Source: Pyropia yezoensis (Eukaryota > Rhodophyta > Bangiophyceae > Bangiales > Bangiaceae). Taken from it: DNA of 64,000 nucleotides. The notes below the pieces were generated by a model. The model saw only the letters and a list, made by a program, of their open reading frames with translations, did not search any database and had not been told where the DNA came from. Within the stretch, counting starts at the first letter, position 1, and every line of letters starts with the position of its first letter. The translations under genes were made by a program, and so were the position numbers. Where the stretch lies: NCBI GenBank assembly GCA_009829735.1, contig CM020618.1, positions 11,561,119 to 11,625,118 of the forward strand, given 5' to 3'. Shown here piece after piece: positions 21,216 to 55,680 of the stretch.

Positions 21216-21325
21216 CGTAAAGGAACCGTGACCATTCGCCGGCACGTAACCATGAAGTGCCCATACGGCCTGGAACGGCGGCCAATCCAGGCCATAGAGG
21301 CCCTTCGGCACGCTAGATCGGCACG
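21216..21325 (+). repeat. Left terminal inverted repeat of the giant element
   Basis: 110 bp that align without gaps to the reverse complement of 55517-55626, with about 12 mismatches. The inner end contains TTCGGCACG-CTAGAT-CGGCACG, two copies of the motif scattered through the element. Confidence 0.8.
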
Positions 21326-24190
21326 GAATCCGTGCCGAAGGCCCCCGTACGGCCTCTCCAGAGGGGGGGGGGGGATCCGACCTCGCCACGCGAGACCTGG
21401 TCGCGGGGCTTTTCTCACACAGATTGACCGCGTTGTGTGGCGAGAGATGGATACGGGCGCTGTGTGCGAGCCAGTCTATTGGCCCATTCTCTATGTAAGG
21501 TGGCTTTTGCGACCACTAAGACTGCTCGGGTTATGCACGCCGTATTTTATACGAAGCCGCGTGCATTTTGCACATGTGAGCAAGGCACCCCTGGGGGGGG
21601 CCCGGAGCTGCCATGTGGGTGGGGGGGCGTGGGGCGCTAGTACGACGCCGCCACCGGGCTGCCGCCGTCGGACGGGGTGGGGGGGCGTGGGGCGCCAGTA
21701 CCGCGCTGCCGCCGGGCTGCCGCCGCCGGACGGCTTCCGCCACTGATCAACTGTCGCAACGGGCAGGGGGGGCGGCGCCCGCTGCGGGCACCGCTCGCCA
21801 AAGCGCCATCGGAATCAGATCAGTACTGTGAAAGAGGGGGGGGGCTGGCGACGCCGCCCTGCCCCAGACAGGAAAGACGCCGCCCGGCCCCAGACAGGAG
21901 AGAGCGCTGGCTGAGGGCGCGAACAAGGAGCGGGTTGGAGTCTGAAGTGTGGTGCGGGGGCTACGTGCGTCCGGGTGAGCTTCGCGGTGGCTGCTTGCAG
22001 GCGCTGGGGTGGTCCCTGGGGGGTGCTGGCGTGAAGGAAGGGAAGTGCTGCGACAGCGACTTTCCGGGCCTGCGGGTGCGGCGGCAGGGACTGCGCCGGT
22101 GATGAGCTGGAAGCAGCAGCGTCGGGGTGGATGCCTCCTCTATCGCCTCTTCCCGGCGTCCTGCGGTACCTCCTGCACGCCACGACCACTTGCGCCGCCT
22201 CCCAAAACGCACTCCCGCGCTATGATTGCTCTGACGGCCGGCATGACCGTCAACAGGTCCCCCTCGTCAGGCGGAGGGCCGGGGGGGGCACAGCCCCGGC
22301 GGGCGGGCTCCAACGCCTGGTCTCTGCTGAAAATACTCTCAAGAAGCCACGGCGGCAGCGTGCCGCGTTCTTCCCGGCGCCAGCAGCGCCTTCGAGGGGC
22401 GCCTGCGAGTACCGCCGGCGCAAGGAGTTGGCGCAGCTCGGCGGGCAGCGCGGGCAGCGACCCTTCTGCCGGTGACCGGGGCCGACCGCGACGAGAAAAA
22501 CGTCGAGTGCGTGTTGTGCGGCGATTGCAGCAACAGGCAACAGGGGTCCGACGGGGTTGGTGGCGGGTAAGTGGGCGGGGCGGAGGAGGCCGCGGCAGGG
22601 GTTGGGGGGGGGGTTGGTGGGCGCAGCGGGGGGGGCGCGCATGTGCGTGAGGCGGAGGGGGAGGCCGCGGCAAAGGGTTGGGGGGGGGGTTGGTGGGCGC
22701 AGCGGGGGGGGCGCGCATGTGCGTGAGGTGGAGGGGGAGGCCGCGGCAAAGGGTTGGGGGGGGGGTTGGTGGGCGCGGCGGGGGGGTCGCGCATGTGCGT
22801 GAGGCGGAGGGGGAGGCCGCGGCAAAGGGTTGGGGGGGGGGTTGGTGGGCGCGGCGGGGGGGGCGCGCATGTGCGTGAGGCGGAGGGGGAGGCCGCGCCG
22901 GTTGGCGGGGGGGGACGTGGAGTCGGAGGAAGCAGCGACGCAGGGAGCATGTCGGGGATTGAGAGAGGGGCGGAAGGCGTCGGGGAGAGGTCATAGTGTC
23001 CACAGGCAGGGAAGCTCAGGATGCTCAGACCCCCCCCCCCCCTGAAATGCCGACAGGGCCCAGTGTTGTCGGCCTCGCCGTCGGGCGCGCGGTGCGATCA
23101 CGTACCGCTTTAAACCAGGCCGTGGGCACAAACCTTGGCGTCGGCACGATGCTGCGGAAGGCACCGGAGGGAGTCCTTCTGGACAGACTCGCCGAGCCGA
23201 TTCTTGCTCATGCAGTACCCATATCCCCGAACCCTGTGTGAAGTTTTAACGCTCATCCAGAGATCTTGTGCTCAGCATTTCCCTGAACTTTATGGGCACT
23301 CGCGTTTTTGCGCAAGAGCGTGATTCGCGTCGGCGCGATGTGATGTTGGTGTCATCCCTCATTTCGGCACGATAACACGCAACTCGCAAGCAACCGGCAG
23401 GCCTTGCCAACACTCGCACCGTTCCGCGGATGGCCCAAAAGGCACCTCACGCAGCGTGTCTCCACGGCGCGGGCGACGTCGCGACACTCAAGAAACGAGC
23501 CTCGCAGGCGGTGCGACGTACGTTTTTACGCCAGCGGGCTTTACCGCAGCGTCGCCAAATCTCGGAGTGTCGACCGGCGGCGCGCCGGCAAAGGCGGCGC
23601 CTTTGCGTGGCACCGCCACCTCGGCAGCGGCTACCTCGGTGGTCTCCGCGGCTGTCGCTGTCGCCGCGGCCACCGCCGCCGCCGCGTCATGGACTACGGA
23701 CAGATCTTCTGGTGGTTGCGCCCAGCATCGCTGCAGGGGTACTTCGTAGCTGGAAGCCAGCAGCGGCCGGCCACCGATGGGAGATAGAGGCGTGTCAGGC
23801 ATGGCACAGCCGTCGCGGTGGCGATAGTGACCTCAACCATTGTCCTGGCCGGCGCCATATTCGCCCCAGCCCGCGCCGCTGGCACAGGAGCGGCACCACG
23901 ACTACAGCAGACGGCGGCCGGGAGGCCAGCTGAGCCTCGGGTGACGCGGCGACGGGAAGATCCTTGTTGCAGTTATCAGAAGCGATGCGCGCCTACGCTA
24001 CTGGGGCAGCCTTGTTGGCGGCAGCTGCATGCGGACCCGCTCACCGCGGCGGCGGCGACGGCAGCTTGAGCCGCGGTATCGACACGGCGGCCATCACCCG
24101 TTCGTGGAAGAAGGCGGCGTGGCTGTGCAGCAGGTTCCCATTGAGCAGGCCCCGGTTGACCGCGTTGCATCGCTTCGCGGAGGCGGCGGG
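21326..24190. other. Left arm of the giant element, mostly non-coding
   Basis: Very GC-rich, with G runs at 21363-21373 and 21834-21842, GC-rich duplicated blocks near 21610-21740, and the 76-bp minisatellite (22565-22900). Moderately convincing minus-strand frames lie at 23488-23802 (Ala/Val/Thr-rich) and 23694-23885; they could be downstream exons of the ORF interrupted by the Ty3 insertion, but I cannot join them with confidence. One TTCGGCACGA motif is at 23363. Confidence 0.4.
22565..22900. repeat. 76-bp minisatellite, about 4.4 copies
   Basis: The phrase ATGTGCGTGAGG recurs at 22641, 22717, 22793 and 22869, exactly 76 bp apart, with a partial unit before it. Units are nearly identical (GGCCGCGGCAAAGGG, then a G run, then TTGGTGGGCGC). 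The period is not a multiple of three, so the long Pro/Ala/Arg frames across it are artefacts. Confidence 0.9.
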
Positions 24191-24463
24191 TCACGCCGTG
24201 CTGTCAGGCCCGAGGCGATGCACGCCCACACCTGTGAGGTGGCCTCCTTTGCGGTGGTGGCAGCGGTAGCTGCGGTACATGCGCACGGCAGCGGCGGCAA
24301 CGGCCGCGGCATCCGCACGATTGGCACGCCCGCGGCCAAGTCGGCGGTCACTATGGCCGCAATATCCGGCGGAGGCGCCCGACCCAGCATTGCCGGGTGG
24401 TGCAAAAGTGTTCGTCCTTTCAACTTCACACAAGAGAGCCACGAGCGACGGCAGCTCATGCTC
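24191..24463 (-). pseudogene. Downstream half of an ORF split by the Ty3 element
   Basis: This minus-strand frame ends at a stop at 24191 and reads GEHELPSLVALLCEVERTNT from the insertion border. With one TSD copy removed it continues in frame from the segment at 33004-33333 (...VGNVAAVVRG). The C-terminal part is Ala/Arg/His-rich. The function is not recognised. Confidence 0.4.
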
Positions 24464-24468
24464 ACCAC
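24464..24468. other. Ty3 element target-site duplication, left (ACCAC)
   Basis: Identical to 33004-33008, directly flanking the TG...CA ends of the LTRs. Confidence 0.85.
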
Positions 24469-25110
24469 TGTGGGGGTTTACCGCACCCCTCGGACTAGGG
24501 GCATCCCCCTTCAGGGGGAGGCGGATCGTGGCGACCTCTGCCCCTGACCGATCGGGGGCAGGAGGAAGTCGCTCCTCCCTCGGGAGGGGCATGCCACGTC
24601 ATCCTCGCCGGATCCCCCCATGAATGGGGGGGGGGAGATAAGATAATATCGGGTAGAGCGATTACGCCCTCCCGATTGGAATTGGCCTTCTGGCCAGTGA
24701 AGGGAAGTTACCTAGGGCGGGCTACTTCCGCCCCAATCTGGCTGAGATTTAGTGAGATCCCTCCACTGAGCGTGTTTTGCGTGGAGAGATGTGTTGGAGG
24801 GCTCTGAGTGTTTTGATTGGGTGTTTAATGTAGGGAGTGTTGGCCCGCACTCCGGGGTCCCACAGGGGGCCCTGGACCGGCGGGCCAAAGAGGGATATCT
24901 GCGCGTGGGGCTGTGCCCGTTGCTTCCCCCTCACAAAAAATCAACCTTGCGTTACCCTCGTGTTCCCCGTCCCGGACGCTTCCACCTTTGCGTGGAGCTT
25001 TACGTTCCGGCGGTTCTGACTCCAGGGTTTATACCCCGGGTTCCCCACCATCTCCTTCAGGAGGATAAGGTACCCCGTTGGTGTGGGCTTACGCCCAGAT
25101 AACCACCACA
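24469..25110 (+). repeat. 5' LTR
   Basis: 642 bp, TG...CA ends, matching 32361-33003. It should hold the promoter and polyadenylation signals of the element; I could not assign U3/R/U5 borders. Confidence 0.9.
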
Positions 25111-25130
25111 TTTGGTGGAGCAGCAGGGGA
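25111..25130 (+). other. Candidate primer-binding site
   Basis: TTTGGTGGAGCAGCAGGGGA directly follows the 5' LTR. TGG two bases in would pair with a tRNA 3' CCA end, predicting a primer tRNA ending in GCUGCUCCACCA. The tRNA species was not identified. Confidence 0.5.
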
Positions 25131-25254
25131 GGGGACTCGCTCCGCCTTCTGGTGGAGTCTCCTCTCCTTTTGTTGGGTGGTTTCTTGGTCGTGTGCTCTG
25201 TGGTTGGGTTGTGACCCCTGGTACCTTTTCTTTCTTGCCTTACGATGGGTCGAG

Positions 25255-27057
25255 ATGCAGTCTGATACTTCTGCTCCTCCTCAAGGACGAGGTCCTACAC
25301 CTGTGGAAACGTCAAACGTGACAGCAGGTACCGGCGAAGCTCCCGTTGGCGCCTCACGGACCAACCCTGGTGTTGAGTCGGCCGCTCAGCGGGAACGCAC
25401 GAGTTTGTCCCGTTTGGACCTGCCTCCGGGTGGAGTGCCAGGCGCCGGTGAGGCTCCCGGCCTGGTACAAGCCACTCCAGGCGCGACCCCTGATGGGGAG
25501 GCAGCCCACGGCTTCGGCGACCGCTCTACCTTTACCTCCCGTGAGTGGGGGGCCTGGGCCTCACTCGCGGGTGGGGGTACGTTTGCATCGCCCACCCAGG
25601 ACCGTATGGCCACGGATAATTTTAGAGGCGCCCCTTTGGGGGGCGTACCCGCTGTGGGGGGGTCGTCCTCCACGGCTATGGGAGCCGTTCCTCTGGCGGC
25701 TTTCCGCCAGATGTTGACGGAGGTGGTGTCACCAATTTCGGCTCGACTCGATGAGGTCGAGGGTTCAATCTCTCGATCTGGTCGGCGGACTCGCCGCCGA
25801 CCCCACGGTTATTCGCAGACATCTTCCTCTTCAGAGGCAAGTGATGTTGATCCTGAGAGGCGTGGGGCGAGGTGCTTAAGCGCTTCGACCCACCGCCGGG
25901 TGGCCCGTTTGCTATCCCCCGGACGTAACGGGGAACAGGAGCGGGTTATCCCGCTCAAGATAACACCCGATGATGATACCTTTAAAGGTATCCTGGATTG
26001 CGAGTCTTATGCACTCGCCAATAAGAGCGTACGCTATGATGAAGAGATGGCTCACGGCTTAGGCCAGAAGCGCAAAGAGATATCCCTCACGTTTGGGCGT
26101 GACGCCCTCTGGGACGGGACCCCCCCTCTAGGGGTGTTCGAATTCCTAAATCGCTTCCGTAAGGCTAGCGATGACAACGACCTCTCAGAAGGTCGGGCTA
26201 TGTACCTCCTTCCGGAGTTTACCAAAGGGGAACTCAAGAAGGAGCTCCTCTCCCTTATCCCCTCTAAGGCGGGGGGGCGAGCGGGAGAGGTCACTTCGTA
26301 TCTGGAGCTGGTTAACTGGCTCCTCCGCAGTTATGCGGACGAGGAAATTATATCATCCCAAGTGGCAGCGTTTAATAACGTTGCCCAAGAGGAGGATGAG
26401 ACCGAGACCGCCTTTTACCGGCGCGTCCGCGACGCAAATGTGCTCTGCGGGTATATTCATACTGCGAGCCAACTGAAGGGCCGCTTTATGCAAGGGGTCT
26501 GGTAGGAGGTACGGACTGATGTCCGTGAGTTTAATACACCAGACACGCCCATAGAGGCTTTGGTACGATATGCTCAACGCAAAGGCGACATATGTCGCCG
26601 GCGCAATGAGGAGCTGCGGGCCCAATGGTCCGCAGACGCTGCGGAGCGTCGGGCTCGGCGCAATGCCTCTAAAGGCATTGCAGCGGGGGTGGCTACTACC
26701 CCCAGCGGATCCTCCGTACCTTCGTTGTACGGGGGGAAGGCCAAAATTGGCACTGATGCGGGGAGGGAGCGTTTAAATCGCTACCCCTGCTTGGCTTGTA
26801 ATAGCCATGAGCATTTTACGCGCCACTGTCCCGACCTTAGTGTCGAGACGCGGGCCAAGTTTGAGAAAGCCCGTAAGGAGCGCGCTCGGGTTGAGGGCCG
26901 TACCCCGCGGGGTACGGCGGGGACGGCGCAGCCCGTAGCGGTTGTCACTGAGGGGGGGCCTTCTGGCGCCCCTAAAGGGGCGCCTGGCCCACAGGGGAAT
27001 ATTAAAGAGTCAGAGGACTCTTCATCTGAGGATACCCCCTCCTCAAAAAACGATTAA
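25255..27057 (+). pseudogene. Ty3/gypsy gag with an in-frame stop
   Basis: The first in-frame ATG is at 25255 (MQSDTSAPPQGRGPTPVETS). The frame is stopped by TAG at 26503-26505 (QGVW*EVRTD) but resumes in the same frame to TAA at 27055-27057. The capsid-like part (FLNRFRKASDDNDLSEG...LLPEFTKGELKKELLSLIP, then YADEEIISSQVAAFNNVAQ) is followed by a CCHC zinc knuckle CLACNSHEHFTRHC, as expected for a nucleocapsid. The TAG lies between capsid and nucleocapsid regions and most likely inactivates this copy. The last codons before TAA form the -1 slippery site into pol. Confidence 0.8.
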
Positions 27058-27089
27058 GGGGGAGGCCTGATGAGGATGATTCCTCCCCC
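27045..27089 (+). promoter_or_regulatory. Programmed -1 ribosomal frameshift signal (gag-pol)
   Basis: The slippery heptamer A AAA AAC (27045-27051) is phased as X XXY YYZ in the gag frame, two codons before the gag stop. Six bases later an 8-bp perfect stem, GGGGGAGG (27058-27065) with CCTCCCCC (27082-27089), closes a 16-base loop. Heptamer, spacer and stem match the standard -1 frameshift layout, and pol is open in exactly the -1 frame. Confidence 0.85.
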
Positions 27090-30000
27090 GGGGAAGAGGA
27101 TGTCGTGTTGAAACGCATCTTACCCCGACCTCGTGGGGTGAAGCGTAAGATGGTCAGCCCTAAAGGGAAGGACGAAGCTAAACAAGCAGCTCGGATGGTG
27201 GCATTAGTGTCACCACCCACGGCGTATCAATTAGCCGTACGGCTTTTTATTACTAAGGGATATGAATGGGCAACGAAGGCCATCCTCGATACCGGGAGTG
27301 GCCCTTCGCTCGTCCGGAAGCAGGCATTACCTCGGGGGTTCCCTATGGAACCCCTGGGAGACCTGGAAACCTTAAGGTTTTATGATGTGAACGGGGGATG
27401 GCTCCCCATAGTGGGAAGCGTCACCCTGGGGGTCTGTGTGGAAAAACAAATCTCATACATATCCTTTGGCGTGGTTCCGAACATGTGCGTCCCTGTTATC
27501 CTGGGGAACACATTCGTGGACCACGAAACTAAGAGTATTAACTCGGAGGACCAGACGGTCACCCTCTTATCGGGGGAGACCGTCCCCATCCTGCGGGGGG
27601 TTCAGAAGAACCCCCGCCGCAAGCCGAACAGGGAGGCGATGTGTGCGTGTCCCCGGGGGGGGAACGCCCGCCTGGTCCTTACCCACAAGACGCTTATGCG
27701 TCCGGGTACGATTGCGCACGTTCAAGTGCGTGGCAACTTCCAAGGCCACGGATACATCCGTGGCAAGAGCACATTGCACTCCATTCATGGAGCGCAACTG
27801 GCCGAGGGGCCCGCCACGCTTAAGCCTGGCCAGCCTACTACGGTACAGGTTATGAATCCGACTAAGCGGCCGGTACGTTTACGTGCCGGCATGGCCATAG
27901 GACACATTACTGTGTTTGATGGCGTCAGCCAAGAGGCTTCCACCGAAGAGTTGAAGGATCCGGAACCGAGACCGGCTCCGAAGGAATCCTCCCTCGCCCC
28001 AGGTATAGACCTGGGGAGGGTGCCTGAAGGCCTGCGAGCGAAGCTCACGGCGCTTTTAGAGAGATACAATTCTCTCTGGGATGGTACCCTCGGGACTATC
28101 AAAGAGACGGTACACCGTATCCGGCTTAAGCCAGGAGCGGTCCCCGTCCGACAACATCCCTATAAGTCTGGTCCTAGGACCCGTCTAGTGGAAGAGGAGC
28201 AAGTCCGATTAATGGACTCGCTCGGGGTCATAGAACCCTCCCACGGGGAATGGGCTAGCCCCGTGGTAATCGTCCCTAAGCCTGGGGGCGGCAAACGATT
28301 TTGCATCGACTACCGTCGTCTTAATGAGATGACGGTGAAGGATGCATATCCTATCCCGCGTATGGACGAGTGCTTAGATTCACTCGGGAACGCCAACGTT
28401 TTTTCGACGTTGGATTGTAATGCTGGCTACTGGCAAATACCGGTAGCCAAAGAGGACCGGCCGTTAACGGCCTTTACGTGCCACTCTGGCACTTGGCAGT
28501 GCAAGCGCCTCCCTTTTGGGTTGTGCAACGCGCCAGCCACCTTTCAGCGTGCCATGGACATGATCCTGGCAGGCGTGAAGTGGCAGACATGCCTCGTCTA
28601 CTTGGATGACGTTACTGTCTTTTCCAAGTCGGCGGAGGATCATTTAGAGCACCTTGAGACGGTGCTCTTCCTCCTCAAGGCTCATGGGGTTTCCCTCAAG
28701 GCCAATAAGTGCCACCTCTTTCAAGAGGAGGTCGACTACCTCGGCCATGTCATAAGACCTGACCGCGTTCTCGTTAACGAGAAAAATACGAGAGCGCTAC
28801 GAGGGTTGCAATACCCTCGTACACAAACCCAGATGAAAAGTTTTCTGGGGATGTGCGGCGTCTATCGGCGCTTCGTACGGGACTTCGCCAAAGTAGCGAA
28901 GCCCCTTACCGCGCTGACGAGTACCAAGCTTCCTACGAAGCTATCTCTCCCCACAGAGGTGGAGGAGATCGCTTTCGAGACGCTTCGGGGGCTGCTTCTA
29001 TCACCCCCCGTATTAGCGATACCTCGGATGGGCGGCCACTATATAGTGGACGTGGACGCGAGCTATGAGCAGCTCGGCTGTTGCTTATTACAACAGCAAC
29101 CCGACGGGGAATACCTCCCTGTAGGGTATTATTCCCGGCAGTTGAACCCGGCCGAGAGAAATTATCACGTCACCAAGATTGAAGCGCTCGGTGTCGTATG
29201 GGCCGTGACACACCTACGATCCTACCTTGAAGGGGAGGAATTTGTAATAAGGTGTGATCACCGCGCCCTTTTGTCCGTGCTGGTTACAAATAGCCCAAAC
29301 ATACGGATTAACCGTTGGCGGCTTCGGCTGTCTGAGTTTATCTACAAACTCCGGTATAAACCGGGGGCCGACCATAAGGTGGCCGACGCTTTGTCACGCT
29401 TGCCCACGGACGAGCCTGACAAGGCTCCTATAGATGAGGACCTTCCGGTCCTCGCCACGGTGACCAGGTCTGCTCAGGCTTTGGCCGGGCGGAGCGAGAA
29501 GCATCGCCCTTTGGGGCCTATTACGGTAGAGGAGCTTATAAAAGCTCAGGCTGAGGACACCTTCTGCCTGGAACGGCGGAAGGAATGGGAGTCGGTACCT
29601 CCCCCTGACCCAAAATGGGCCAGGAAGGCTTTCTTCTTTGAGAACGAAGAAGGAATACTATGCCGGAGGTCCTTCTTCCTGGACACCGCCCAGATGGTGA
29701 TCCCCTCATCTCTACGGGAGCGTCTTATGACGTACCACCATGAATTACCTTTGGCGGCCCATCCTGGGGCTCGCCGGATGTACGCCACGCTGAGGCGTGG
29801 GGTCTACTGGCCCACCATGATTGTAGACGTGTACAAACACGTCTCCCAGTGCACGGGGTGTGCTCGGAATAGGCTGGATGAGCGTAGGCATACGTCTACG
29901 CTCAAGCTATTCCCAGCCAACGAGCCCTTCGCCAGCCTGGCGATGGGTATTCTCGGGCCCTTACCCGCTTCTGAAAACGGCAACAGGATTATAGTTCTTA

Positions 30001-31097
30001 TGGTGGACCGTTTTAGTAAGCTCACCCGGGCGGTCCCCATGAAGGAGATTACCGCGGTGGCAGTGGCTTCGGCGTTTATTGACGTCTGGGTAGCGTCTTA
30101 TGGCATACCCGACTCAACGCTGACCGATAACGGTCCGCAGTTTGCTTCCGTCTTTTTCCAGGGGGTCTTAGGACTCCTAGGGATTGAGGCGAAGTATACG
30201 ACGCCTTACCACCCCCAAACAAATGGGCAGGTGGAGCGATATAATCGCACTATTATGAGGCAGCTCCGGGTTTATACCGCGGAGCACCCAAAGGAGCGGG
30301 ACCGTTATGTCTCACTCCTTACAACGGCCTATAACACCCAAGTGCATTCTAGCACTGGGCAGGCCCCCCTCATGTTTGTGAGCCCAAGGCGGCTCCAAAC
30401 AACGGGGGTCGAGCGCCTCCCTAAGCTTCGTCCCCTTAAGGAGAAGGAGGACTTGGGGGAAGGCGAGGACGAGGACTCCCAGACCGCAGCCTTACGGTTT
30501 GTGGAAGACCTGAAGAGCATTATCCCCCAGGTGCGTAAGCACCTGGCCAAGGCGCAGGAGGCGTATAAGAAAACCTTTGACGCCACTGTCGCGGAGAAGA
30601 ATAAGGACCTACGGGAGGGGGACTGGGTTTTCCTGGCCTCCCATACCCGTAAGCGGTCTAAGCTCGCTCATAAGAGCGTGGGCCCCTACATGGTCTTGAG
30701 GACCGATGGGCGACGTTTCACTGTGGAGACCCCTTCAGGCATCCGAACGGTTACGAGTGACCATGCCACTCGTGCCCCGGCACCCCAAGCAGGCCATCCT
30801 GCCTGGGCACGTGCCGAGGCAGCACGAGCCAACATTAAAGTGGCTCAGCCCTCCCCGAGTACAGGGGATGGCAAAGAGTACGTGTTCGAGAAGTTTGTGG
30901 ACCACCGCTTTAATGCGGAGCGCGCGCTTGAATTGCGCATACGCTGGTTCGGCTATGGCCCCCAGGATGATAACTGGCGGCTAGCAACGGGTTTGCCGGC
31001 TGAAGCCCCCGACGGCCGTTTACACTGGTACCGTGGTACCACTTGGCCAACTCACCTGCCAGAAGAGGGTGGTGGACGCGTACGTTTACACGTGTGA
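27051..31097 (+). CDS. pol: Ty3/gypsy pol polyprotein (PR-RT-RH-IN-chromodomain)
   Basis: Read by -1 frameshift from gag (1348 residues counted from 27051). Domains in order: aspartic protease with LDTGSG (active Asp ~80); reverse transcriptase with FCIDYRRLNEM, LPFGLCNAPATFQ and catalytic YLDD at ~517-520; RNase H with DVDASYEQLG and CDHRALLSVL; integrase with an HHCC zinc site (YHH...AHPG...QCTGC, ~895-937) and the catalytic triad D986, D1026, E1062 (D-x39-D-x35-E); and a C-terminal chromodomain-like segment (~1277-1320, YVFEKFVDHRF...LRIRWFGYGPQDDNW), which makes it a chromovirus. All catalytic residues are intact and I saw no stop. There is no ATG near the start, as expected for a frameshift product. 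Confidence 0.95.
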   Translation, partial: RLRGRPDEDDSSPGEEDVVLKRILPRPRGVKRKMVSPKGKDEAKQAARMVALVSPPTAYQLAVRLFITKGYEWATKAILDTGSGPSLVRKQALPRGFPMEPLGDLETLRFYDVNGGWLPIVGSVTLGVCVEKQISYISFGVVPNMCVPVILGNTFVDHETKSINSEDQTVTLLSGETVPILRGVQKNPRRKPNREAMCACPRGGNARLVLTHKTLMRPGTIAHVQVRGNFQGHGYIRGKSTLHSIHGAQLAEGPATLKPGQPTTVQVMNPTKRPVRLRAGMAIGHITVFDGVSQEASTEELKDPEPRPAPKESSLAPGIDLGRVPEGLRAKLTALLERYNSLWDGTLGTIKETVHRIRLKPGAVPVRQHPYKSGPRTRLVEEEQVRLMDSLGVIEPSHGEWASPVVIVPKPGGGKRFCIDYRRLNEMTVKDAYPIPRMDECLDSLGNANVFSTLDCNAGYWQIPVAKEDRPLTAFTCHSGTWQCKRLPFGLCNAPATFQRAMDMILAGVKWQTCLVYLDDVTVFSKSAEDHLEHLETVLFLLKAHGVSLKANKCHLFQEEVDYLGHVIRPDRVLVNEKNTRALRGLQYPRTQTQMKSFLGMCGVYRRFVRDFAKVAKPLTALTSTKLPTKLSLPTEVEEIAFETLRGLLLSPPVLAIPRMGGHYIVDVDASYEQLGCCLLQQQPDGEYLPVGYYSRQLNPAERNYHVTKIEALGVVWAVTHLRSYLEGEEFVIRCDHRALLSVLVTNSPNIRINRWRLRLSEFIYKLRYKPGADHKVADALSRLPTDEPDKAPIDEDLPVLATVTRSAQALAGRSEKHRPLGPITVEELIKAQAEDTFCLERRKEWESVPPPDPKWARKAFFFENEEGILCRRSFFLDTAQMVIPSSLRERLMTYHHELPLAAHPGARRMYATLRRGVYWPTMIVDVYKHVSQCTGCARNRLDERRHTSTLKLFPANEPFASLAMGILGPLPASENGNRIIVLMVDRFSKLTRAVPMKEITAVAVASAFIDVWVASYGIPDSTLTDNGPQFASVFFQGVLGLLGIEAKYTTPYHPQTNGQVERYNRTIMRQLRVYTAEHPKERDRYVSLLTTAYNTQVHSSTGQAPLMFVSPRRLQTTGVERLPKLRPLKEKEDLGEGEDEDSQTAALRFVEDLKSIIPQVRKHLAKAQEAYKKTFDATVAEKNKDLREGDWVFLASHTRKRSKLAHKSVGPYMVLRTDGRRFTVETPSGIRTVTSDHATRAPAPQAGHPAWARAEAARANIKVAQPSPSTGDGKEYVFEKFVDHRFNAERALELRIRWFGYGPQDDNWRLATGLPAEAPDGRLHWYRGTTWPTHLPEEGGGRVRLHV

Positions 31098-32360: not shown

Positions 32361-33003
32361 TGTGGGGGTTTACCGCACCCCTCGAACTAGGGGCATCCCC
32401 CTTCAGGGGGAGGCGGATCGTGGCGACCTCTGCCCCTGACCAATCGGGGGCAGGAGGGCGTCGCTCCTCCCCCGGGAGGGGCATGCCACGTCATCCTCGC
32501 CGGATCCCCCCATGAATGGGGGGGGGGGAGATAAGATAATATCGGGTAGAGCGATTACGCCCTCCCGATTGGAATTGGCCTTCTGGCCAGTGAAGGGAAG
32601 TTACCTTGGGCGGGCTACTTCCGCCCCAATCTGGCTGAGATTTAGTGAGATCCCTCCACTGAGCGTGTTTTGCGTGGAGAGATGTGTTGGAGGGCTCTGA
32701 GTGTTTTGATTGGGTGTTTAGTGTAGGGAGTGTTGGCCCGCACTCCGGGGTCCCACAGGGGGCCCTGGACCGGCGGGCCAAAGAGGGATATCTGCGCGTG
32801 GGGCTGTGCCCGTCGCTTCCCCCTCACAAAAAATCAACCTTGCGTTACCCTCGTGTTCCCCGTCCCGGACGCTTCCACCTTTGCGTGGAGCTTTACGTTC
32901 CGGCGGTTCTGACTCCAGGGTTTATACCCCGGGTTCCCCACCATCTCCTTCAGGAGGGTAAGGTACCCCGTTGGTGTAGGCTTACGCCCAGATAACCACC
33001 ACA
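32361..33003 (+). repeat. 3' LTR
   Basis: 643 bp, about 98% identical to the 5' LTR and followed by the ACCAC duplication (33004-33008). Confidence 0.9.
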
Positions 33004-46012: not shown

Positions 46013-47484
46013 TCAAAGCTTCTTCTCGAGGCCAAGCGATTGACCTGCAGGGATGCCTTCCCGGCAATTGCAGCCCGTCACCTCGCAGCGGTCCACCATG
46101 GCGTTGTGGTAGTATGACTCTACCGTCTGGTGCTGGATCTCCAGCGGCACGAGCGCCTGGTTGGCGCGCGGGCAACAACGCTTTTAGCCATGGCCTCCCG
46201 CTTCTGTGACACGCGAATGTTGTTGTACGCCGCCATGTATCTTGAGCGCACGATGAAAAGGTGCTGAGAAATGTAGGTCAAGGATGACTTGAACTTCTTC
46301 TTGATGGAGTGTTGCCGCTCGGCGCTTGACGTGTCATGTCCCCGCGAAATCTCGGGATACTCGTCGGCCTCAAAAACAGGTGAGCACACGTGCCCGCATT
46401 GATGGAAGCGGTCGATGAAGAAAGAAACCTCCTCTTCAGTCAGGAGCCAGGGTACGCGGCGAAGCGCGTTCCGCTGTGTTTGGCAGGCAGTGTCGCAGTA
46501 CACCACTCGCGGCATCCGCACAAAGCGCTGAGCAAGCGCTGCGACCAGGTGGGCCGGACTCTCGGTCTCCTTTAGCAGCTCGAACCCGATGATGTAGCCA
46601 CATCCACACATAAACGTTAACACCCCCGGTCCGCGAATGAGCGACTTGGGGTACCCGTGCCGGCAGTTATCAGCGTCCCAGGTGCACCGCTGTCGGGTAA
46701 GCAGCCTGTTGTTTGGGCGACGACGGCGGAGACGCTGTACGGGCCGAGGTGTCCGGCGGCGTCGTCGTGCTGCTCTCCGTCGGTCTCGCACTGCTGTCGC
46801 ATCCTCAGGGTAAGGTCTTACCAGCTTCCGGCCTGGCCACGCTTGACCCGTCCGCTCTTCCTCGGCTTGCTCCAGAATGCGAGCTTGGACTGCTGCGTGG
46901 CCAACAATATGGGTCACAGCTGGCTTCACGCCTTGGGCCGCTGCCCACTCTTGATACTGCTCCGCCGATGTGTCCTGCCACATGGCGCGATACTCCTTTG
47001 CGGCTTCTGACGCCTTGGTATCCCACAGGTCCGTCGCAGCAGGGCCCCGGGAAGCAGCAAAGAGGATGAGCTCTCCAACGGCGTGCGCCAACAGCGGATC
47101 TTCGTCCATGCGCCTCTTGACCAGCAGAAGAAAGTGCCAAACAAAGACGACATTGCGGACACACTGCGCCAGGCCCAGCCACTCTGAACTTGGAACACCA
47201 TTGGCCAACGCATGTCCTAGAAGCTGCACATCCACGAGGTCACAGCCGCCGAAGACGTTGATGGCTGGCTCTGCCAGCATGGCCGAGAAGAACAGGCGCA
47301 CTTTTCTCCATCGGTCTGCCGTGACGTCAGGGTTTTCGGAAGGAGGAAAGAAGTTCGACGGCAAGCACTGAAAGCGCGCGGGTCGAGCAGCGGGTGCTGC
47401 GGCTTGCTCTTCTACAGCAGGCGTAGAGTGCCCGATGAGCCGGGTCCCGACGAGCTCATCCTGGTGACATGAAAAACTCGCCAA
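46013..47484 (-). pseudogene. KDZ-like transposase (catalytic part), frameshifted near its end
   Basis: The main frame covers 47484-46120 with no ATG at its upstream end, so the N-terminus is unresolved. Its second half shows GPGVLTFMCGCGYIIGFELL, ESPAHLVAALAQRF, MPRVVYCDTACQTQRNALRR, FFIDRFHQCGHVCSPVF and DTSSAERQHSIKKKFKSSLT, in the order seen in KDZ transposases and the HMGXB3-type relatives (Asp-x-AC, HxxxHxCS, N/S-x-AEQ). Near 46165-46175 the frame shifts: the other frame continues NQALVPLEIQHQTVESYYHN...CEVTGCNCREGIPAGQ to a stop at 46013, which looks like the genuine C-terminus. An Arg-rich linker (RRAARRRRRTPRPVQRLRRR) separates an N-terminal helical region. It is likely the mobilising enzyme of the giant element, inactive in this copy. 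Motif copies lie 5' of it at 47661-47757. Confidence 0.65.
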
Positions 47485-48029
47485 AGTCGTTGGAAGTGTG
47501 TCGTCGAAAGAGGAGGAAAATCACGACAAGCGCTAATCGGCTCGAGGTGCGCCGGGTGACAAGGGTGGGCACTGCTTGCACAGGAGCGTGAGTTACGTGT
47601 TGCCGACACGACACCAAGGCGCGAGAGGCGGTGCAATACCAAGTGGCGTAGAGTGTTGATTTCGTGCCGAATTATGCTGTTAACGTGTTTTCGGCACAAC
47701 ACTGGTCGATCTAAAGCGTTCTAAAGAAGCCGGTTCGGCACAACGTATTACGCCGAACTGGCACGAAGCAGAGCATTGGCACTACTTTCTCACCAGTGAG
47801 TCTTCACGTCCTCGCGATACTCGTAGAGAACAATCTCTGCCGTCCGACAGCGCCCGACCTGTTGCCTACCGACCTGTTTCTGTTGCCTCGGAAGTGTTAC
47901 TTGACCACCGAAGCGACGGTGGCCGTCTTGACGTGCACACGTTAACAAAAGGACGACCTTCAGAAAATCACTTAAGAAAGAGGACTAAGAACGTCTTAAA
48001 AAGAAAAGCAAACAAGGAGCCACTTCGCG
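47485..48029. promoter_or_regulatory. Intergenic region with TTCGGCAC palindromes
   Basis: Contains TTCGTGCCGAA (47661-47671), TTCGGCACAA (47690-47699), and the pair TTCGGCACAA / ACGCCGAA (47734-47757), within 300 bp upstream of the KDZ-like gene on the minus strand. A regulatory or transposase-binding role is inferred from recurrence. Confidence 0.45.
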
Positions 48030-51000
48030 CTATTTCTTCGTACGGCGGGTCTTCATTGGAGAGGAAGGCTCTTCCTCAGAAGCACACTCGGCGTCCTTTT
48101 GCCGCTTACGGGTTCTCCCTGCGACGGATGTGCTGACCTCACCGCCGACAGGTGCGGAGGCAGATGTCAAGCCCCGTCCAGTGCCCTTGGGCGGTGCAGT
48201 CTGCGTCTTTGTGGGCGCCGACCTCTTTGCAGGCCGAGGGGAGCGCGGGGATTGAGGTCGATCAGCAACGGAGGACGCACTGCCAGTCTTCCCCGACCGG
48301 GTCTCCATGGCGCTGTCTGGAAGCTTCGCGTCAAAGTGCACGGAGCGAGCCTCGGATGTCGTATGCTTGCCCACGCCCGGCTGCTGCGACGTTCCACTGC
48401 GCAGGGTACGAACAGTCTCAGGGGCCGCAGGAGCACCGGGAAGCCGTTGTCCTTGAGTGGGTTGACGATCGCCGCCGTCTGTGTCGCCTCTGGCAACGGA
48501 AGCATCACTGCCCGCCGTTCTCTCAGCGTCCTTCAAGCCAGCAGAAGATACGGTCGGCACATCCGTGTCAGTGCCACATGTCGTCTCGACGACAGCGTGC
48601 CTCGCTGGGGCGGCAACTGCAGCCAAAACCGAGTCCTCCAATGTTGTCAAAGACGCTGCAGTGCGCCCTCTGCGCAAAGTGGGCGGTGACATTGGCACGG
48701 CCTTGAGGCCTGCTTGCGCGCCCGCAGGCTCCTCCCTGGCCTTCACAGCCTTCTTGACAGTGATACCCGTATTCTTGCCCGCCAGCGTATGCGAGGGTGC
48801 TTCCGCCCCCCCAGAATTACCCCCCAGCGCGTCCTGAGCGCCTGCCTCCCCGCCAGAGTGTGCAGCCACGCCAGGTACCGTCTGCACCTCAGCTGCGTCT
48901 GCTACCCGGGCCAGCGTACGTAGCCCACGAGCCGCTTTGAGAGCCACCGTACTCTCTCCTGCAGGCTCTTCCGACTCTTCAACGGCCGATTTTGATGGTG
49001 GAGCGGTAGCTGCCTGAATTCCGGCCGTTGCCAACTGCCTTGTGTCGTTCTTCGAGACATTCGCCGTAAAGGAAATGGTGGCCACCGGTGCAACTGGTTG
49101 AGCCGGACGAGCTGCAGGGCCTTGTCGGGCTGCTGACGCCAACCGGGACGTGGGGGCCTGCGGGGGCGATGCAGCTCGCTGCGAAGACCGTGCAGCCACC
49201 GTCCCGGTGACACCTATTGTGGGAATCGTTTCGGCCGCCATATTCTCCACAGAGGCGCCGGTGGCTGCCGTCCGAGTCCTTGCCTGTGCCACAGAGCCAT
49301 CGGGAGCCTTAGCGGCCGCTATCGCCGATAGAGCGTTGACGACCGGCGCGGCCGCCGCTGGTGCCGCTGTCGCCACCGCCGGCGCGGCAGTCTGCGCAAG
49401 AGGACTCGCGACTATCGCTTCGGTTCCAGTCCCCGGGGGGGGTGTGGGAGCAAGGACGACAGCCGCATCTGAATAGGTGCTCAACGCTGGCGTTGCGGAC
49501 CGAGGTGAGGAAGCCGCGGCCTTCTGCCCAGCGGCTGTCGCCATCTCGATTGACGCGGGAGGCTGGGCAGGCTCCTTCTCACATGTCGCCTTCGCTGCCT
49601 TGAATCCTTCCACCGAGGAGGCTGCAGCTGCCAGTCCAGCGGCCTCGGCGGAAGAAGCCGCTCCTGAAGGCGGCTTGCCCGCAGTCGATGGAGCCTTGGG
49701 ACCCTGAGCAGCGGCTGCGTGTGAGGCCGAAGCGGGCGCCGTTGGAAACACCCCAGGCGATGGGCGGACGACGGGTTGCGGAGGATGCCATGCTGGTCGC
49801 CCAGGCGGCTTTCGCAGCGGCGGTATGCGCTTTCGTCTTGTTGCAGTACTCTTTCCAATGGTCGGCCGGGCACCACCAGGCTGTTCAGCTGCTTGAGATG
49901 ACGTTGTTCCACGAGGGGGCGCCTTCGAAGGGCCCCCCGCGGCAAATTTCGCCCTCGCGAGCCGGGAGGATTTAGCCGGCTGCTTGCCCTTCTTGACCGT
50001 CTTCGTCGGAGAGAGCTTTTTGAGCTCAAGTTGAAGCACACCCGCCGCTGCTCGTTTTGCAGCTGCAACAGCCGTGGCAGACTGCCGCGCGTCTTCTTTC
50101 GCCGAGGTATTTGCCCCAGCCGCAGCATCACCGTCACTCGACGGTGCAGAGCACGAGGATGAGCCGACTTGTGCCCCTGCCCCGGATGACTGGGGAGAAC
50201 CCTTTCCACGGGGTCCTTTCGCAGCCTTGACTGAGCGCACCGCAACTGCCTTCTCTCTCTTCTCTCGTTCTTGCTTGCGGCGCTTGGCCGCAGCAGCTGC
50301 CAAAGCAGTGCGTGCTGTCGAAGATGCGAATTTCGACGCCTTTTTCGTCGTTGCGCTTGTTGAGTAGCCGGTCGTCGGGACAACCGCCGCGGCCACCGAG
50401 CCACGCGTGGACGGATTCTCCTTCATGGCCACTGAGTCACCCGCCGAGTCACGAGCTATCTCACGCGCCGCCTCTCCCGCCACGTCCCCCGCCGACTCCA
50501 TTGCCGCCTCGTCCGTCGGCTCGACCGCCAGCAATTCCGCCGGCCCTTCCGGCCGCACGCCAGAGCTCTCACCAAGCGGCGTGTCCTCCGTCGCCAACGC
50601 CGCCGCAGCCGCCTACGCGCCCGCAGCCGACGCACCCGCCGCGCCCGCCGCCGCGCCCGCAGCCAACGCGCCTGCCGCGCCCGCCGTCGCGCCCGAGGTC
50701 GACGCGCCCGCCGTGCCGCCCGCCAATGTGCCAGCAATTGCGCCTTCATCGCGTGCTTTCTCGCCATAGCCAGATATAGCAGCCACGAGAGGCACTCGCG
50801 AGGACCCGGACTTGAGCAGCAAGGCACGATCCAGACCATCCACAAAACTGCTCACGGCATCTAGCGCACGCGGCTCCTTGGTCATTTGCAGAAGAAGGTC
50901 GCCAACCCGCTCCGCGACCGACGTTGCACGCGCTCGTGATGCCTGGAAAGTGGGAACCACCACAGACTGCTCACCTGTCAATGCGCGATGCTTGCCGTCT

Positions 51001-52199
51001 GCGAGAGCAGCAAGCTCATTCGGGACGACCACTTGAAGTGGCCATACATTGCGGGAGTCCGGACGCCGAGGCCACCACGGTAGCGATAGGCGCGCTCGCC
51101 TTGTCGACAGGTCTTGAGCGATCTCTTTCGACGCCACAGTTAACGCAGCCCGCAAGTGCGTAAGGGGACACTTTGACTTCTCGAACAGCGCTTGCGCGAC
51201 TGCTGATGCTTCAGGCGAGGGAGAGACAGCTTCAGGTGGGTGCTCGCTAACAGGACAGACGGGCACAATCCGCGTGCCTACCTTGACAGCCTGGCGCCGA
51301 CGAGCCTTACTGCCAACCGAAGCACGACTTAAATACGGCGCGGGCACCGACGGCGATGAGGAAGATGAGGACCTGCCTGCAGCGGCCGCGGCAGCAGCGG
51401 CAGCAGCAGCAGCAGCAGCAGCAGCAGCTTCACCAGCACTGGCAGGCGCTGATGCAGCCCCCTGATCTCCGTCCTTGATTGACGAAGCTCCCTTCTTAGC
51501 CGACAAAAAGGCCGCCGATGTCGCGTTTGCCGCCGCCGGTGAACCCGTGGCCGTAGAGGCCGCCTTCGCACCAGCGATTGCTGCCGCTGCAGCTGCGTCG
51601 GCAGGTTGTACGTCTACTGCTCCCGCACCGCCCTTCGTCGCCGCCTTCGCAGCGGCTGCGACAGCTTCTGCTGCATCGTCCGTGGGAGGGTGAGCCGCTG
51701 CCGCCTCATCGTCAGCGGCGAGCGCCGCCGCCGCAGGCCCCAATGGCTTTTCAGCACCCGCTGCCTTGTCACCTGCCGACGGCCCCCCCCCCCGGTGAGA
51801 GGCCTTGCCACCGGGGCGTCCAACTCCGGCAGAACTTCGAGGCGGTCGGTCTCTCCCTTTTCCCACATTCGCACGGGAGAGCAAGGCGTGCGAAGTCCCC
51901 ACCATGCTCGGGCCGCTCTCGACGGACCGATTCACCATGCTGAGCACGCGGCGGGCAGGGCTCTGAAGAACGCCGGCATCTTCCCACACAGGGAGCCAAA
52001 ACACCTTGCCGGCCTTGTCGTACCCAGAGAGATGCACATGCCACGTGAGCGACTTGCTCGAATTGGCGAGCACCTTTAGGTTCTCCATCAGCTGTTCCAG
52101 CTCCGGCGACGGCAAGTCGGATGCGCGTTCCTCCCCGACGGACGACAGGAGGGAGCGCCGCACGCTCTGCGCGGACGCACGCGCCGATGGACGCACCAT
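48030..52199 (-). pseudogene. Long Ala/Pro/Lys-rich protein gene with in-frame TAG
   Basis: ATG at 52199 (MVRPSARASAQSVRRSLLSS) opens a frame that hits TAG at 50615-50613 and then stays open in the same frame to 48030, about 1390 codons in all. The N-terminal part has two ordinary-looking regions: LPSPELEQLMENLKVLANSSKSLTWHVHLSGYDKAGKVFWLPVW, and GTRIVPVCPVSEHPPEAV through DAVSSFVDGLDRALLLKSGS, separated by Ala tracts (GCT/GCC runs, 51387-51430). The part after the TAG is histone-H1-like in composition (AAAKRRKQEREKREKAVAV, KKLSPTKTVKKGKQPAKSSR) and ends with basic nuclear-localisation-like sequence (RTRKRQKDAE, MKTRRTKK). No family is recognised; DNA or chromatin binding is plausible from charge. 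The TAG falls in a low-complexity Ala stretch. Confidence 0.55.
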
Positions 52200-53186
52200 C
52201 GTCAAGATTGCGAACGCGTTCGAAGTCGGGAGGGGGAGGGAGCCGAGGGTTGACGCACCGGCACAAAACGTGGTTCGGGTCGCGTACGGAAGAGATGCGC
52301 CTGCCTTGCCGAAGAGGTCCGCTGCTCAGGGGCACTAGGGGCAAGAAACAAGCCGAAGCACGTCGATTGTCGGCCGGCAAGCGGCCGACGCCTCAGCCTG
52401 CCACCGCACGCAGGCAGGAGGGGGGGAGCCCAGCGTTTACGCACCGGCACAAAAAAATCGGTCCGGGTTTCGCCCGGTCTGGGGCCCTCGGCGCAAGAAG
52501 TGCGCCGAAGCACGTCGATGAACGGCCGGCATACGGCCCACGCGCCAGCCTGCCACCGCGCGCAGGCAAGCTGCAGGGCAGCCACCAGCCGAGGCATCTG
52601 GTCGAAATTGTGTGCCGACACGTGTTTCGTGCCGACACAAACGTTTCCGTTTCGTGCCGACGCAGCCAAACCACTTCTGACGACGTTGAATTCGATACCT
52701 TTTGAATGAGCCACAGACGCGGGTTCCTCTGGGAACTAGTCGTGCCGAATGGCGCGTCCAGCGAAGGCTCGTGCTCTCTGCCGTCCCCTGAGCACCTCGC
52801 CCACGGCATCCTCGCCCGCTGCCACCCTGAGGCAACGGCACCTGCTCACTTTGAAATGGTCCCTGCCCCACATTCTCCTACAAGCGGATTTTACGGCGGT
52901 TGCCTCTAGGTCGGCACGCTACCACATACAAGGCAGCCGGCAAAATGCCGACAGCATGCACAGCCTACATAGCGGTGTTGCCGGGGCGGCACAAGTATAC
53001 AGGCCCCTGCTTGAGACAAGGCGAAAAGCACTGGAGATGTGCGCTGAAGTAAAGCAAAAGCGCAACGATGGCGCCTCGACGGAGGCACATTTACTGGCTA
53101 CACGAAAAACGCTCGTTGTCGTTGAGGTACTCCTCCACGGTCCTTGTGACATGCACAGGGCATGTCGCATGGTTCGACAGCCACAA
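52200..53186. other. Intergenic region with TTCGGCAC motifs
   Basis: TTCGTGCCGA at 52626-52635 and 52651-52660 and TCGTGCCGAA at 52740-52749 lie 400-550 bp upstream of the minus-strand gene starting at 52199. Imperfect GC-rich duplications occur at 52215-52290 and 52425-52500 (GGGAGCCC...GCACCGGCACAAA). The rest of a RING motif from the next gene is readable at about 53186-53130. Confidence 0.4.
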
Positions 53187-53822
53187 TTAAATCTCCTCCT
53201 TGTGAAAAGCGCACCAACATGGGAGGCGGAGCAGCTCCTTCGCCCCACCCAAAGAGTCAAAGCATATAGCACAACGAGCCACTCCATCCGCCAAGTCCCC
53301 CGTGCTCAAGAAAAAACGATGCAGCTGACGCATCACGCTCGGAGGCACCCGGTCACGGTTGGCGTCCAGACCACCAGCAGACGCGGGGGCCGCCCACGCG
53401 GAGTCTAGCGCCGTGTCCTCGTAAGTGTATTCAATACGCAGGCGAGTAGAGGATGGTGGAGCAGGAGCGACGGGCCCGCCTGAGCCCGCCCGCCGAGACG
53501 ACCGCCAGCTATCCATCGCGTCCAAGACGGCAGTGACAGACGGTAAGATGGGGCCCACATCTGAAGTGACAGAGGCAGCGACGAGATCCCTCGCCCAGGG
53601 CGGCACAAATGCGTGAACATACATGTACCGCGTGCGACGCTGGGTTGCCACTCCGCCCTCGTCGGACCCCGAAGGATTTGCATTCGCTCGGTACCCCATG
53701 TCACTGGGCGTCCCCACCGTGTCCGCCAAGCCGGCGGCAGGCGTCTCGGCGGTTGTCCGCAGCACAGCCCGCCGTGCGGTCGATGACGCACGTCCCGAGG
53801 CCCGGGTGGCACGCGACGACAC
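53187..53822 (-). pseudogene. RING-finger-like protein, truncated within the RING
   Basis: The frame has no ATG at its upstream end (GTG at 53822). The N-terminal half is Thr/Ala/Arg-rich; the middle includes RYMYVHAFVPPWARDLVAAS and PSSTRLRIEYTYEDTALDS. The C-terminus is CAICFDSLGGAKELLRLPCWCAFHKEEI, the first half of a RING-H2 finger, then TAA (53189-53187). The same frame continues LWLSNHATCPVHV, which supplies the W-L and CPx parts of a RING but has lost canonical ligands (EEI where EC is usual, CPVH for CPxC). RING proteins are E3 ubiquitin ligases; this one is degenerate and stopped. Alternatively the TAA could be removed by splicing. Confidence 0.5.
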
Positions 53823-55516
53823 AGGGGCCCCCCCAGCAGCGACTGCCGTGTCGTGGCTGACGACGCGGCGGCCATCTGGTCGCTCTCCCGACGGCGCAGC
53901 CGGTGAGAGCGTCGGGCGGGTCGGACGAGTCCGGACGTCCTTCGGACGCTGTCAGGCCGGCTACGTCTCGTCCGTCGGTGGGGAGGCATTCTCAAGCGCC
54001 CGCGGGGGTCGTGAAGGGAGAAGATGAAGACAAGGTGAGAGGGATGGGGGAGTTGGAGGGGACAGCCGCGCGTGCGCCACAACGGTGAGAGTGCAGCGGT
54101 GAGGACGTGCCGCGAAGGTGAAGGTAACTGGTCGGCGGACCGTCCGTGTTCTCAGATAGCCTGCTGCACTGCAGAGGAAAAAAAGCGTGCGGACTTCATG
54201 TGAACAGGTGTGTCAACAAATGAACCTGTCCTGAGTGACCGGTGGGTGGGGGTCTACTGCCTGGCTAGCTTGTTGCCTGCAGCCGTTGACCGTGGTGTTG
54301 CGAGAGCGGCCCAAGATGACTCACGAGCTCCAGGGAAACGTACGGGCGCAACACCACAACAGAGTGGGGCCGTGTCCGAGTCCCGCACGAGGCAGATCCG
54401 TGCCCAAATCGGCCGAGGTCCTTGCGAGCAAATCAGATGCTGCCCGCCACGACCTCCTGGCCTTGGCAGCGGCGTGCCGTACATCGTCACGATGTAGTAT
54501 CGCGCCGAAACAGCATGTTCAGCCCAGGTGGTCGGCAGTGTCGTCACTATGCGGTATCGCGCAACCAGGATTCTAACGAATTGTCGACCAAACAGACCAC
54601 ACTTCTGTTCCAATCAACAAACACGACAAATGCGAGTGAAAGTGAATTTGAATTTCAGCGTACATTAACTTTGCTGTTCTCATAGATTCTTTCTCCACTG
54701 TCCACCACGACCGATAATGGTGGGAGGTCTGGTGGACATGCTGCGTGCATGTGCTCAATTCGGCACCATTGTGCCCAACCCCAGTCGGCAGCATCGTGCA
54801 GACCTCGTGCTTCGTGCCGACAAGAGTCAGGGGTACCGCGGAGGATGGCCCTGCAGTGGCCACCCCCCAGCTCGCCGGAAGGACGTGCAGGCGATGCACA
54901 TTTGGCCGACGCGCACCCGTTCCAACCGTACTGAGACACCACCCCCTTTCCCTCTTGCACGTCCGGCCCCTGCCGACCGCTCCAGGTACCGCTGCAGCCA
55001 CCCCCCCACTTGACGGTCCTCGAGCCTCACTCTCTGCTTGCCATTGCGGTCGCCATTGCATACACCGTGGCTCGCTTCTGGCCAGCTAAAACGAGGTGCC
55101 CCTCCTTCTCGCCCACACCTCGCCCGCCCCGTCCAGCCGCCCCCTTCCGCAAAAAAAAACCGAGTCGCCCCAGCTCCCCCTGTCCGCACACAGATCAACC
55201 CCGATATTGCGTACCGCACGAAGAACATGCACATGATGCACGCACTGTAAAGCAAGCATTGAGCACGGAGGCGGTTCCACGGATTCGCACACCCGGCGAG
55301 CCACGTGCGCCACGTGCACGCAACGCCCCGCCACGTGCCCCACGTGCACGCCATGCCCCCGGTAATGCGGCAATAAGGACGCCACGTGCCCCACGTGGCT
55401 GGCGACGTGATCGACGCCGGGGCGGCCCGAAATCAGCAGTCCAGACTTAAGGAATCTCTCGCTTCCTATTGGTCGAGCCATGACTGCATGTGCTGGAATT
55501 GTCGGCGCGGACCTAT
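53823..55516. other. Right arm of the giant element, mostly non-coding
   Basis: No gene can be supported. Motif copies lie at 54759-54766 (TTCGGCAC) and 54811-54820 (TTCGTGCCGA), upstream of the RING-like gene. Close to the right TIR there is a cluster of CACGTG sites (55302-55397). Confidence 0.45.
55302..55397. repeat. Six CACGTG palindromes in three 9-bp-spaced pairs
   Basis: CACGTG occurs at 55302, 55311, 55332, 55341, 55383 and 55392. Each pair is offset by exactly 9 bp. It sits about 120 bp inside the right terminal repeat. CACGTG is a known E-box/G-box target of bHLH and bZIP factors. Confidence 0.85.
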
Positions 55517-55626
55517 CGTGCCGATCTAGCGTGCCGAAGGGCCTCTATGGCCTGGATGGGCCGCCATTCCAGGCCGTATGTGCACTTCGTCGTTTCGTGC
55601 CGGCGAATGGCCACTCTTCCTGGACC
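55517..55626 (-). repeat. Right terminal inverted repeat of the giant element
   Basis: The reverse complement matches 21216-21325 over 110 bp without gaps, including CCATTCGCCGGCACG near the tip and CTAGATCGGCACG at the inner end. Confidence 0.8.
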
Positions 55627-55633
55627 GTAAAGC
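55627..55633. other. Target-site duplication, right (GTAAAGC)
   Basis: Identical to 21209-21215. The following TCAACCGGGCACGGT matches copy A from 7693, so host sequence resumes here. Confidence 0.8.
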
Positions 55634-55680
55634 TCAACCGGGCACGGTCGACACCAATGAAGCCGATCTCGACCGAACCG

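Follow-up and report, generated by a model that had tools for sequence, protein, structure and literature searches.

A giant KDZ-related DNA transposon family with a separate Ulp1 gene in the red alga Pyropia yezoensis

Termini, empty site and copies of the element

The stretch of DNA analysed here (the window) comprises 64,000 nucleotides of the Pyropia yezoensis (nori) genome (C1:11561119-11625118), and the segment 21216-55626 within it is occupied by an element with inverted repeats at both ends and four genes between them, i.e., a SWIM-like/CxC4/Ulp1 gene (gene 1), a SET-domain gene (gene 2), a KDZ-related transposase gene (gene 3) and a RING-finger gene (gene 4) (Table 1). A first-pass annotation, made from the letters of the window, had read this segment as one giant KDZ-like DNA transposon of ~34 kb, and its description of the ends was accurate. 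The termini (21216-21325 and the reverse complement of 55517-55626) aligned without gaps and with 12 mismatches in 110 bp, where about 12 had been counted, and the likeness of the two repeats ended at position 110. The terminal letters of the element, with the 110-bp repeats, are CGTAAAGG (GGTAAAGG in copy D, see below) and GGTCCAGG. The same 7 bp, GTAAAGC, was present outside both ends (21216 and 55626), as that annotation had also noted. Furthermore, a paralogous copy within the window (7358-12190), said to read straight through the insertion point at GTGAAGC, did so: when the insert and one GTAAAGC were removed, the joined flanks gave one alignment of 415 columns with 7358-7772 (2 gaps, 95.2%) that spanned the junction, and the empty site GTGAAGC (7686-7692) differs from GTAAAGC by one base. 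The duplicated host flanks to the right of ~7.7 kb were only 80-86% alike, and therefore the host duplication around the element is older or has undergone partial conversion.

The copies of the element were then sought in the P. yezoensis genome (107.5 Mb in 11 contigs, three of them of 43.6, 34.3 and 29.4 Mb; contigs are named C1, C2 and C3 here). The left and the right repeat each gave at least 27 matches, among which, at an identity of 95% or more, the left-type ends exceeded the right-type ends, 14 vs 6. The two types differ by 7-11%, so that the ends of the element are asymmetric and evolving apart. Five left/right pairs faced inward, spanning 26,660-45,266 bp on three chromosomes (copies A to E, Table 1), and all five were flanked by perfect 7-bp target duplications of five different sequences. 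Copies B to E were colinear with copy A except for insertions and a partial internal duplication in B, and over 24.5-25.4 kb their identity to A was 97.8 (B), 97.6 (C and D) and 96.4% (E). The duplication in B (C1:12.708-12.714 Mb, stretch L011) is in tandem and takes in the SET gene and the last part of the transposase gene. The genome search with the 110-bp repeat, a check set beforehand, hence returned further copies that share internal sequence, and not an unrelated short repeat.

The size of the element had to be revised. A nested Ty3/Gypsy retroelement accounts for ~8.5 kb of the 34.4 kb in the window. Its long terminal repeats (LTRs) are 98.3% alike over 633 compared columns; the retroelement is bracketed by the 5-bp duplication ACCAC (24464-24468 and 33004-33008), and copies B to E lack it at the matching place. 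In addition, the 500 N of an assembly gap stand for a stretch that in copies C and D measures 1061 bp and has 65-66% G+C. The core without nested insertions is therefore ~26.4-26.7 kb, i.e., the earlier claim holds as to a single mobile unit, present in five colinear copies with duplications, and fails as to its length, the unit being ~26.5 kb and the rest nested retroelement.

Other traces of the family were less complete. Nine left-type ends had no right partner; their likeness inward extended over 0.66 to ~3.4 kb in the short stretches compared, and in three cases it ran on to where the compared sequence stops. At C2:25.59 Mb, a rearranged place, a right-type end and a left-type end point the same way at a distance of 5.1 kb, and two loci (C2:6.04-6.08 Mb and C1:12.13-12.15 Mb) matched all four genes but lacked a recognisable pair of ends. 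A diverged and decayed family at C3:4.934-4.999 Mb kept the order gene 1, SET, gene 3 and end repeat, with identities of 39-55% for gene 1, 48% for SET, 55-75% for gene 3 and 82% for the end repeat, of which one was found. Separately, diverged end repeats (~84-85%) face each other 6.9 kb apart at C1:18003429-18010341 (L027), possibly delimiting a shorter related element.

Table 1. Features of the element in the window and its paired copies in the genome
Feature	Position	Strand	Remark
Paralogous sequence with empty site GTGAAGC (7686-7692)	7358..7772	+	
Left 7-bp target duplication GTAAAGC	21209..21215	.	
Left terminal inverted repeat, 110 bp	21216..21325	+	
Subterminal tandem array, 76-bp unit, ~4 copies	22585..22897	+	
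Nested Ty3/Gypsy LTR retroelement	24469..33003	+	RVT_1, RNase H and integrase (rve) matches
Gene 1: SWIM-like/CxC4/Ulp1 (Peptidase_C48) protein	34166..37919	+	homologue P0042, 1251 aa
Gene 2: SET-domain protein, ~230 aa	43328..44020	+	
Assembly gap, 500 N	44446..44945	.	1061 bp in copies C and D
Gene 3: KDZ-related transposase	46016..47720	-	open over 569 codons in copy C
Low-complexity frame rich in Ala, Ser and Thr, putative coding	48030..52325	-	one stop inside in the window
Gene 4: RING-finger protein	53094..54151	-	PF13639 over cut-off in copy D
Right terminal inverted repeat	55517..55626	-	
Right 7-bp target duplication	55627..55633	.	
Copy A, 34,411 bp	window		target duplication GTAAAGC
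Copy B, 40,281 bp	C1:12686900-12727180		target duplication TCGTCGC
Copy C, 45,266 bp	C1:41494782-41540047		target duplication CCGGTTC
Copy D, 26,660 bp	C2:31106901-31133560		target duplication AGTCTGG
Copy E, 35,189 bp	C3:951729-986917		target duplication CGACGGG

Genes of the element, separate and fused

The first-pass annotation had assigned the transposase to a gene at 46013-47484, and the location, at ~46.0-47.7 kb, was supported. In the window the gene carries two frameshifting indels relative to the frame of copy C, and its longest open piece is 46123-47520; copy B has one such indel, and copies D and E one stop each. A six-frame protein search with the window transposase matched 91 places in the genome. 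Ten loci of the genome matched the KDZ profile PF18758, three of them over its cut-off of 26.6 bits and none inside the element, and at these three loci the six-frame search gave E-values of 1.3e-32, 9.2e-29 and 1.0e-23. Among the homologues of gene 3, two of eight scanned matched PF18758, both below the cut-off (P0030, 25.7 bits; P0022, 22.3 bits), and one of 41 bore it as a precomputed label. An alignment of nine sequences, KDZ-positive relatives included, contained 37 invariant columns, with D284, E320, D343, D370, H373, H377 and C379 among the invariant positions; at E401 one of the nine sequences has D. Two nr entries, both hypothetical proteins of P. yezoensis, match parts of the window's transposase frame at 96% and 92% identity. 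The relationship of gene 3 to KDZ transposases, as judged from these comparisons, is thus well supported, and we use the wording "KDZ-related" because the protein of the element misses the PF18758 cut-off, which is a detection threshold and not a biological trait.

Gene 1 encodes a CxCx(n)CxH motif that looks SWIM-like by eye, with no Pfam SWIM match in the gene, and a clear Ulp1 domain (Peptidase_C48, E 1.5e-26 in the homologue P0042); in a search of the PDB it matched the structure of yeast Ulp1 at 8.5e-18. It is interrupted by one in-frame stop and one frameshift in the window, by a stop in B and in E and by a stop in the Ulp1 part in D, and C showed no stop. The SET match was over its Pfam cut-off (E 5.2e-5, 24.0 bits vs 22.4), and the gene had no in-frame stop in any of the five paired copies; a single indel shifts its frame in the window copy. 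The homologue search with the SET protein returned five proteins, all from one source, and the PDB search with a SET homologue gave one meaningless match only. In the genome the SET protein had 83 matches, members of a large dispersed family; 16 of them lay at most 20 kb from a transposase match, all of these in the close family described below or in the family at C3:4.9 Mb. Several other SET matches share frame length and identity with one another, e.g., three frames of 320 aa at 38%, and so these remaining matches would perhaps be copies carried by other mobile elements of several kinds. The RING match in copy D reached 29.5 bits (PF13639, cut-off 27.3); this frame has 353 codons in B and D and 342 in E, and is disrupted in copies A and C.

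In the window, the putative CxC cluster and Ulp1 reside in one gene, and the transposase is encoded by another gene on the opposite strand, at a distance of 8 kb. The annotation's KDZ type, for which SWIM, Cys-cluster and Ulp1 genes and ~8-bp duplications were taken as known, can be kept as KDZ-related, with the SWIM/CxC/Ulp1 part in a gene of its own and a duplication of 7 bp. A different arrangement was found at C2:21442009-21445476, where a relative has one open frame for 1155 aa, pieced together from two overlapping stretches (L042 and L045), in which a gene-1-like region (8e-12) is followed by a gene-3-like region (3e-21) and by an Ulp1 part like the end of gene 1 (5e-13; pairwise E-values). 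This frame matched PF02902 with an E-value of 1e-25 and PF18758 with 20.0 bits, below the cut-off. Of the 81 transposase matches compared, six have an Ulp1 match within 3 kb on the same strand and with an equal open-frame length, and were read as one frame, a reading checked by sequence, CxC region included, at C2:21442009-21445476 alone. A gene-1-like region lay within 3 kb on the same strand in ten of the 81 (two of them overlapping), and neither Ulp1 nor a gene-1-like region was found within 15 kb in 47. In the close family (10 copies, 89-100% identity), CxC and Ulp1 are on the opposite strand 8-14 kb away in eight copies; the two exceptions are copy C, where insertions place them, likewise on the opposite strand, at a greater distance, and a rearranged copy at C3:7.85 Mb.

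A CxC or Ulp1 label was borne by none of the 41 gene-3 homologues, a search that admits proteins of 0.55-1.75 times the query length and hence only those of 256-815 aa, long fused forms being excluded, and all four gene-1 homologues were labelled Ulp1 and none KDZ. Both halves have separate homologues in other sequence sources at 48-59% identity, which is the range of 35 of the 41 gene-3 homologues, and therefore the separate form is not recent. The two-gene layout may have arisen by fission of a fused form. Whether it is a stable two-gene KDZ machine, in which a KDZ part and a CxC/SWIM-Ulp1 part on opposite strands must cooperate, the SET gene between them is a fixed anti-silencing or targeting partner and the split is old, is a proposal to which we would give an even chance.

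Mode of movement, alternative origins and known systems

We consider, with a probability of roughly 0.87, that 21216-55626 is one copy of a nuclear family of giant DNA transposons with terminal inverted repeats, of ~26.5 kb, and that the KDZ-related transposase and the separate CxC-Ulp1 protein probably move the unit. The unit, its ends, duplications, empty site and copies, its gene content and the location of the KDZ part apart from CxC-Ulp1 are established. The transposase would bind the asymmetric 110-bp ends, probably together with the gene 1 protein, and would cut them as a DDE-type enzyme, so that the whole unit is moved by cut-and-paste and 7-bp duplications are left behind. Gene 1 may contribute DNA or partner binding through its cysteine clusters, and SUMO removal, and the SET protein probably alters the local chromatin in favour of the element, e.g., against silencing; a part for the RING protein may likewise be supposed. 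Since its transposase and Ulp1 genes are both broken, the window copy is decayed and probably cannot move by itself, and damaged copies of this kind would move, if at all, with the proteins of other copies.

Several results weigh against this reading. Only one of the five paired copies has an open transposase frame, and at least four of them have a broken gene 1. The profile match of the transposase gene to a KDZ model that the earlier annotation proposed to look for was not obtained, as direct Pfam searches gave no KDZ match with the window protein or copy C (E up to 0.1) or with P0001 (E up to 1). An RNase H fold with an acidic triad is a trait of such transposases; for gene 3, a PDB search with the transposase profile gave nothing up to E 1. 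The CxC4 match of gene 1 (E 0.012-0.016) is below the cut-off, as is that of the relative L044 (0.0018). Finally, the pooled ratios of nonsynonymous to synonymous substitution rates (dN/dS) among the five copies were 0.98 for SET, 0.83 for gene 1, 0.60 for the transposase and 0.48 for RING, and the off-frame controls (the other two frames of eight stretches) gave 0.49-1.78. The own-frame value was the lowest for the transposase and RING, and an off-frame value was lower for SET and gene 1, so that dN/dS gives little sign of selection and no gene is proven to be selected in the young copies.

The poor state of gene 3, together with the breaks of gene 1 in the window, would also be expected of a non-autonomous cargo element that is moved by a transposase from elsewhere and carries gene 3 as a passenger relic, and giant families without any transposase gene are reported in passages of PMC12477816. 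We regard this as unlikely, because genes 1 and 3 are at the same places in all five paired copies, the gene order is retained in the diverged family at C3:4.934-4.999 Mb, and unpaired copies also have long open gene-3 frames, of 569 and 586 codons, with no stop within the match. A virus-like integrated element of the Polinton/Maverick type with a DDE enzyme would share with this unit its size, inverted repeats and many genes, since Polintons measure 15-25 kb and up to 40 kb (PMC6431247, in part), but it is very improbable: the transposase is KDZ-related, and no family-B polymerase, capsid, packaging protein or retroviral-type integrase of the element's own was found in the 30 window open reading frames (ORFs) scanned (122 ORFs of at least 150 aa were listed), the rve domain that was found belonging to the nested Gypsy retroelement. 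Gene 3 had no relative in a single scan of viral contigs, and the Polinton-like virus was set aside. The insertion region is itself duplicated, which could suggest segmental duplication of a chromosome block whose terminal inverted repeats are fortuitous. This is scarcely credible, as at five sites with differing flanks the likeness breaks off at the same pair of end points, each site having its own perfect 7-bp duplication, and the empty site contradicts it; the five different target duplications rule it out, barring assembly errors at every one of these sites.

The preferred reading, a transposon moved by its own KDZ-related transposase and CxC-Ulp1 protein, places the family among systems that are cited here from excerpts of the articles. 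Giant KDZ elements of up to 30.3 kb are described in the brown alga Ectocarpus (PMC12477816), where a 31.7-kb KDZ element of the green alga Chlamydomonas with observed transposition is also cited, and therefore a giant algal KDZ transposon is not new in kind; the notability that the first-pass annotation had accorded to a cargo-bearing transposon of this size in an alga-like genome is lowered to that extent. These elements and ours have in common the superfamily, a similar length, an algal host, nested transposable elements, accessory genes and an often broken transposase. They differ in the host, which is here a bangiophyte red alga, and perhaps in the KDZ gene, which is here apart from CxC/Ulp1. 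The 7- or 8-bp target duplication that is a trait of the KDZ superfamily is 7 bp in the five paired copies. Fungal Kyakuja elements (KDZ) have 7-bp target duplications, CA..TG ends, no inverted repeats and TET/JBP cargo in the excerpt of PMC12730594; the P. yezoensis element shares the 7-bp duplication, a KDZ-type transposase and an epigenetic-enzyme cargo, but with the terminal letters given above, 110-bp inverted repeats and a SET gene it falls outside Kyakuja as described there. With Zisupton (KDZ; inverted repeats and 8-bp duplications, PMC12730594, PMC9297572) it shares inverted repeats and a KDZ transposase, and the 7 bp seen in all five pairs sets it apart from Zisupton as well.

SET genes on DNA transposons are likewise described for HarbingerS and MuDR in Phytophthora (PMC12730594), which belong to other transposase superfamilies, and a large multi-gene DNA transposon of a red alga is known from the enlarged EnSpm/CACTA elements of Chondrus crispus (16-20 kb, 4-5 ORFs; PMC6431247), which are EnSpm and not KDZ. 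Searches of open-licence PMC text returned nothing on giant transposons in Pyropia or on KDZ-Ulp1 transposases in algae, only work on Ectocarpus for Zisupton in red algae, and no KDZ/SET/Ulp1 element by title. As far as this text goes, what is new is the occurrence of the family in a red alga, its two-gene arrangement and its SET and RING genes. A giant KDZ-related family with exact ends, duplications, an empty site and several copies is directly usable for transposition tests in a red alga, and the presence of separate and fused forms in one genome lets the role of each part and the need for SUMO removal be asked. In addition, the SET gene of a KDZ-related element joins the fungal TET/JBP as chromatin enzymes on transposons.

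Flanking sequence and minor features

Rfam and tRNA scans of the window gave no match. To the left of the element, the window carries a 1248-aa frame (17286-21032) with 22 ankyrin matches (PF00023) and a DNA unit of 102 bp, which stops ~180 bp before the element; the final bases of this frame and the sequence beyond are repeated at 7358-7657 with 98% likeness. Just outside the right end lies a 20-bp tandem repeat of ~5 copies (55654-55754), to which a 40-bp stretch at the paralogous site (7742-7781) is related.

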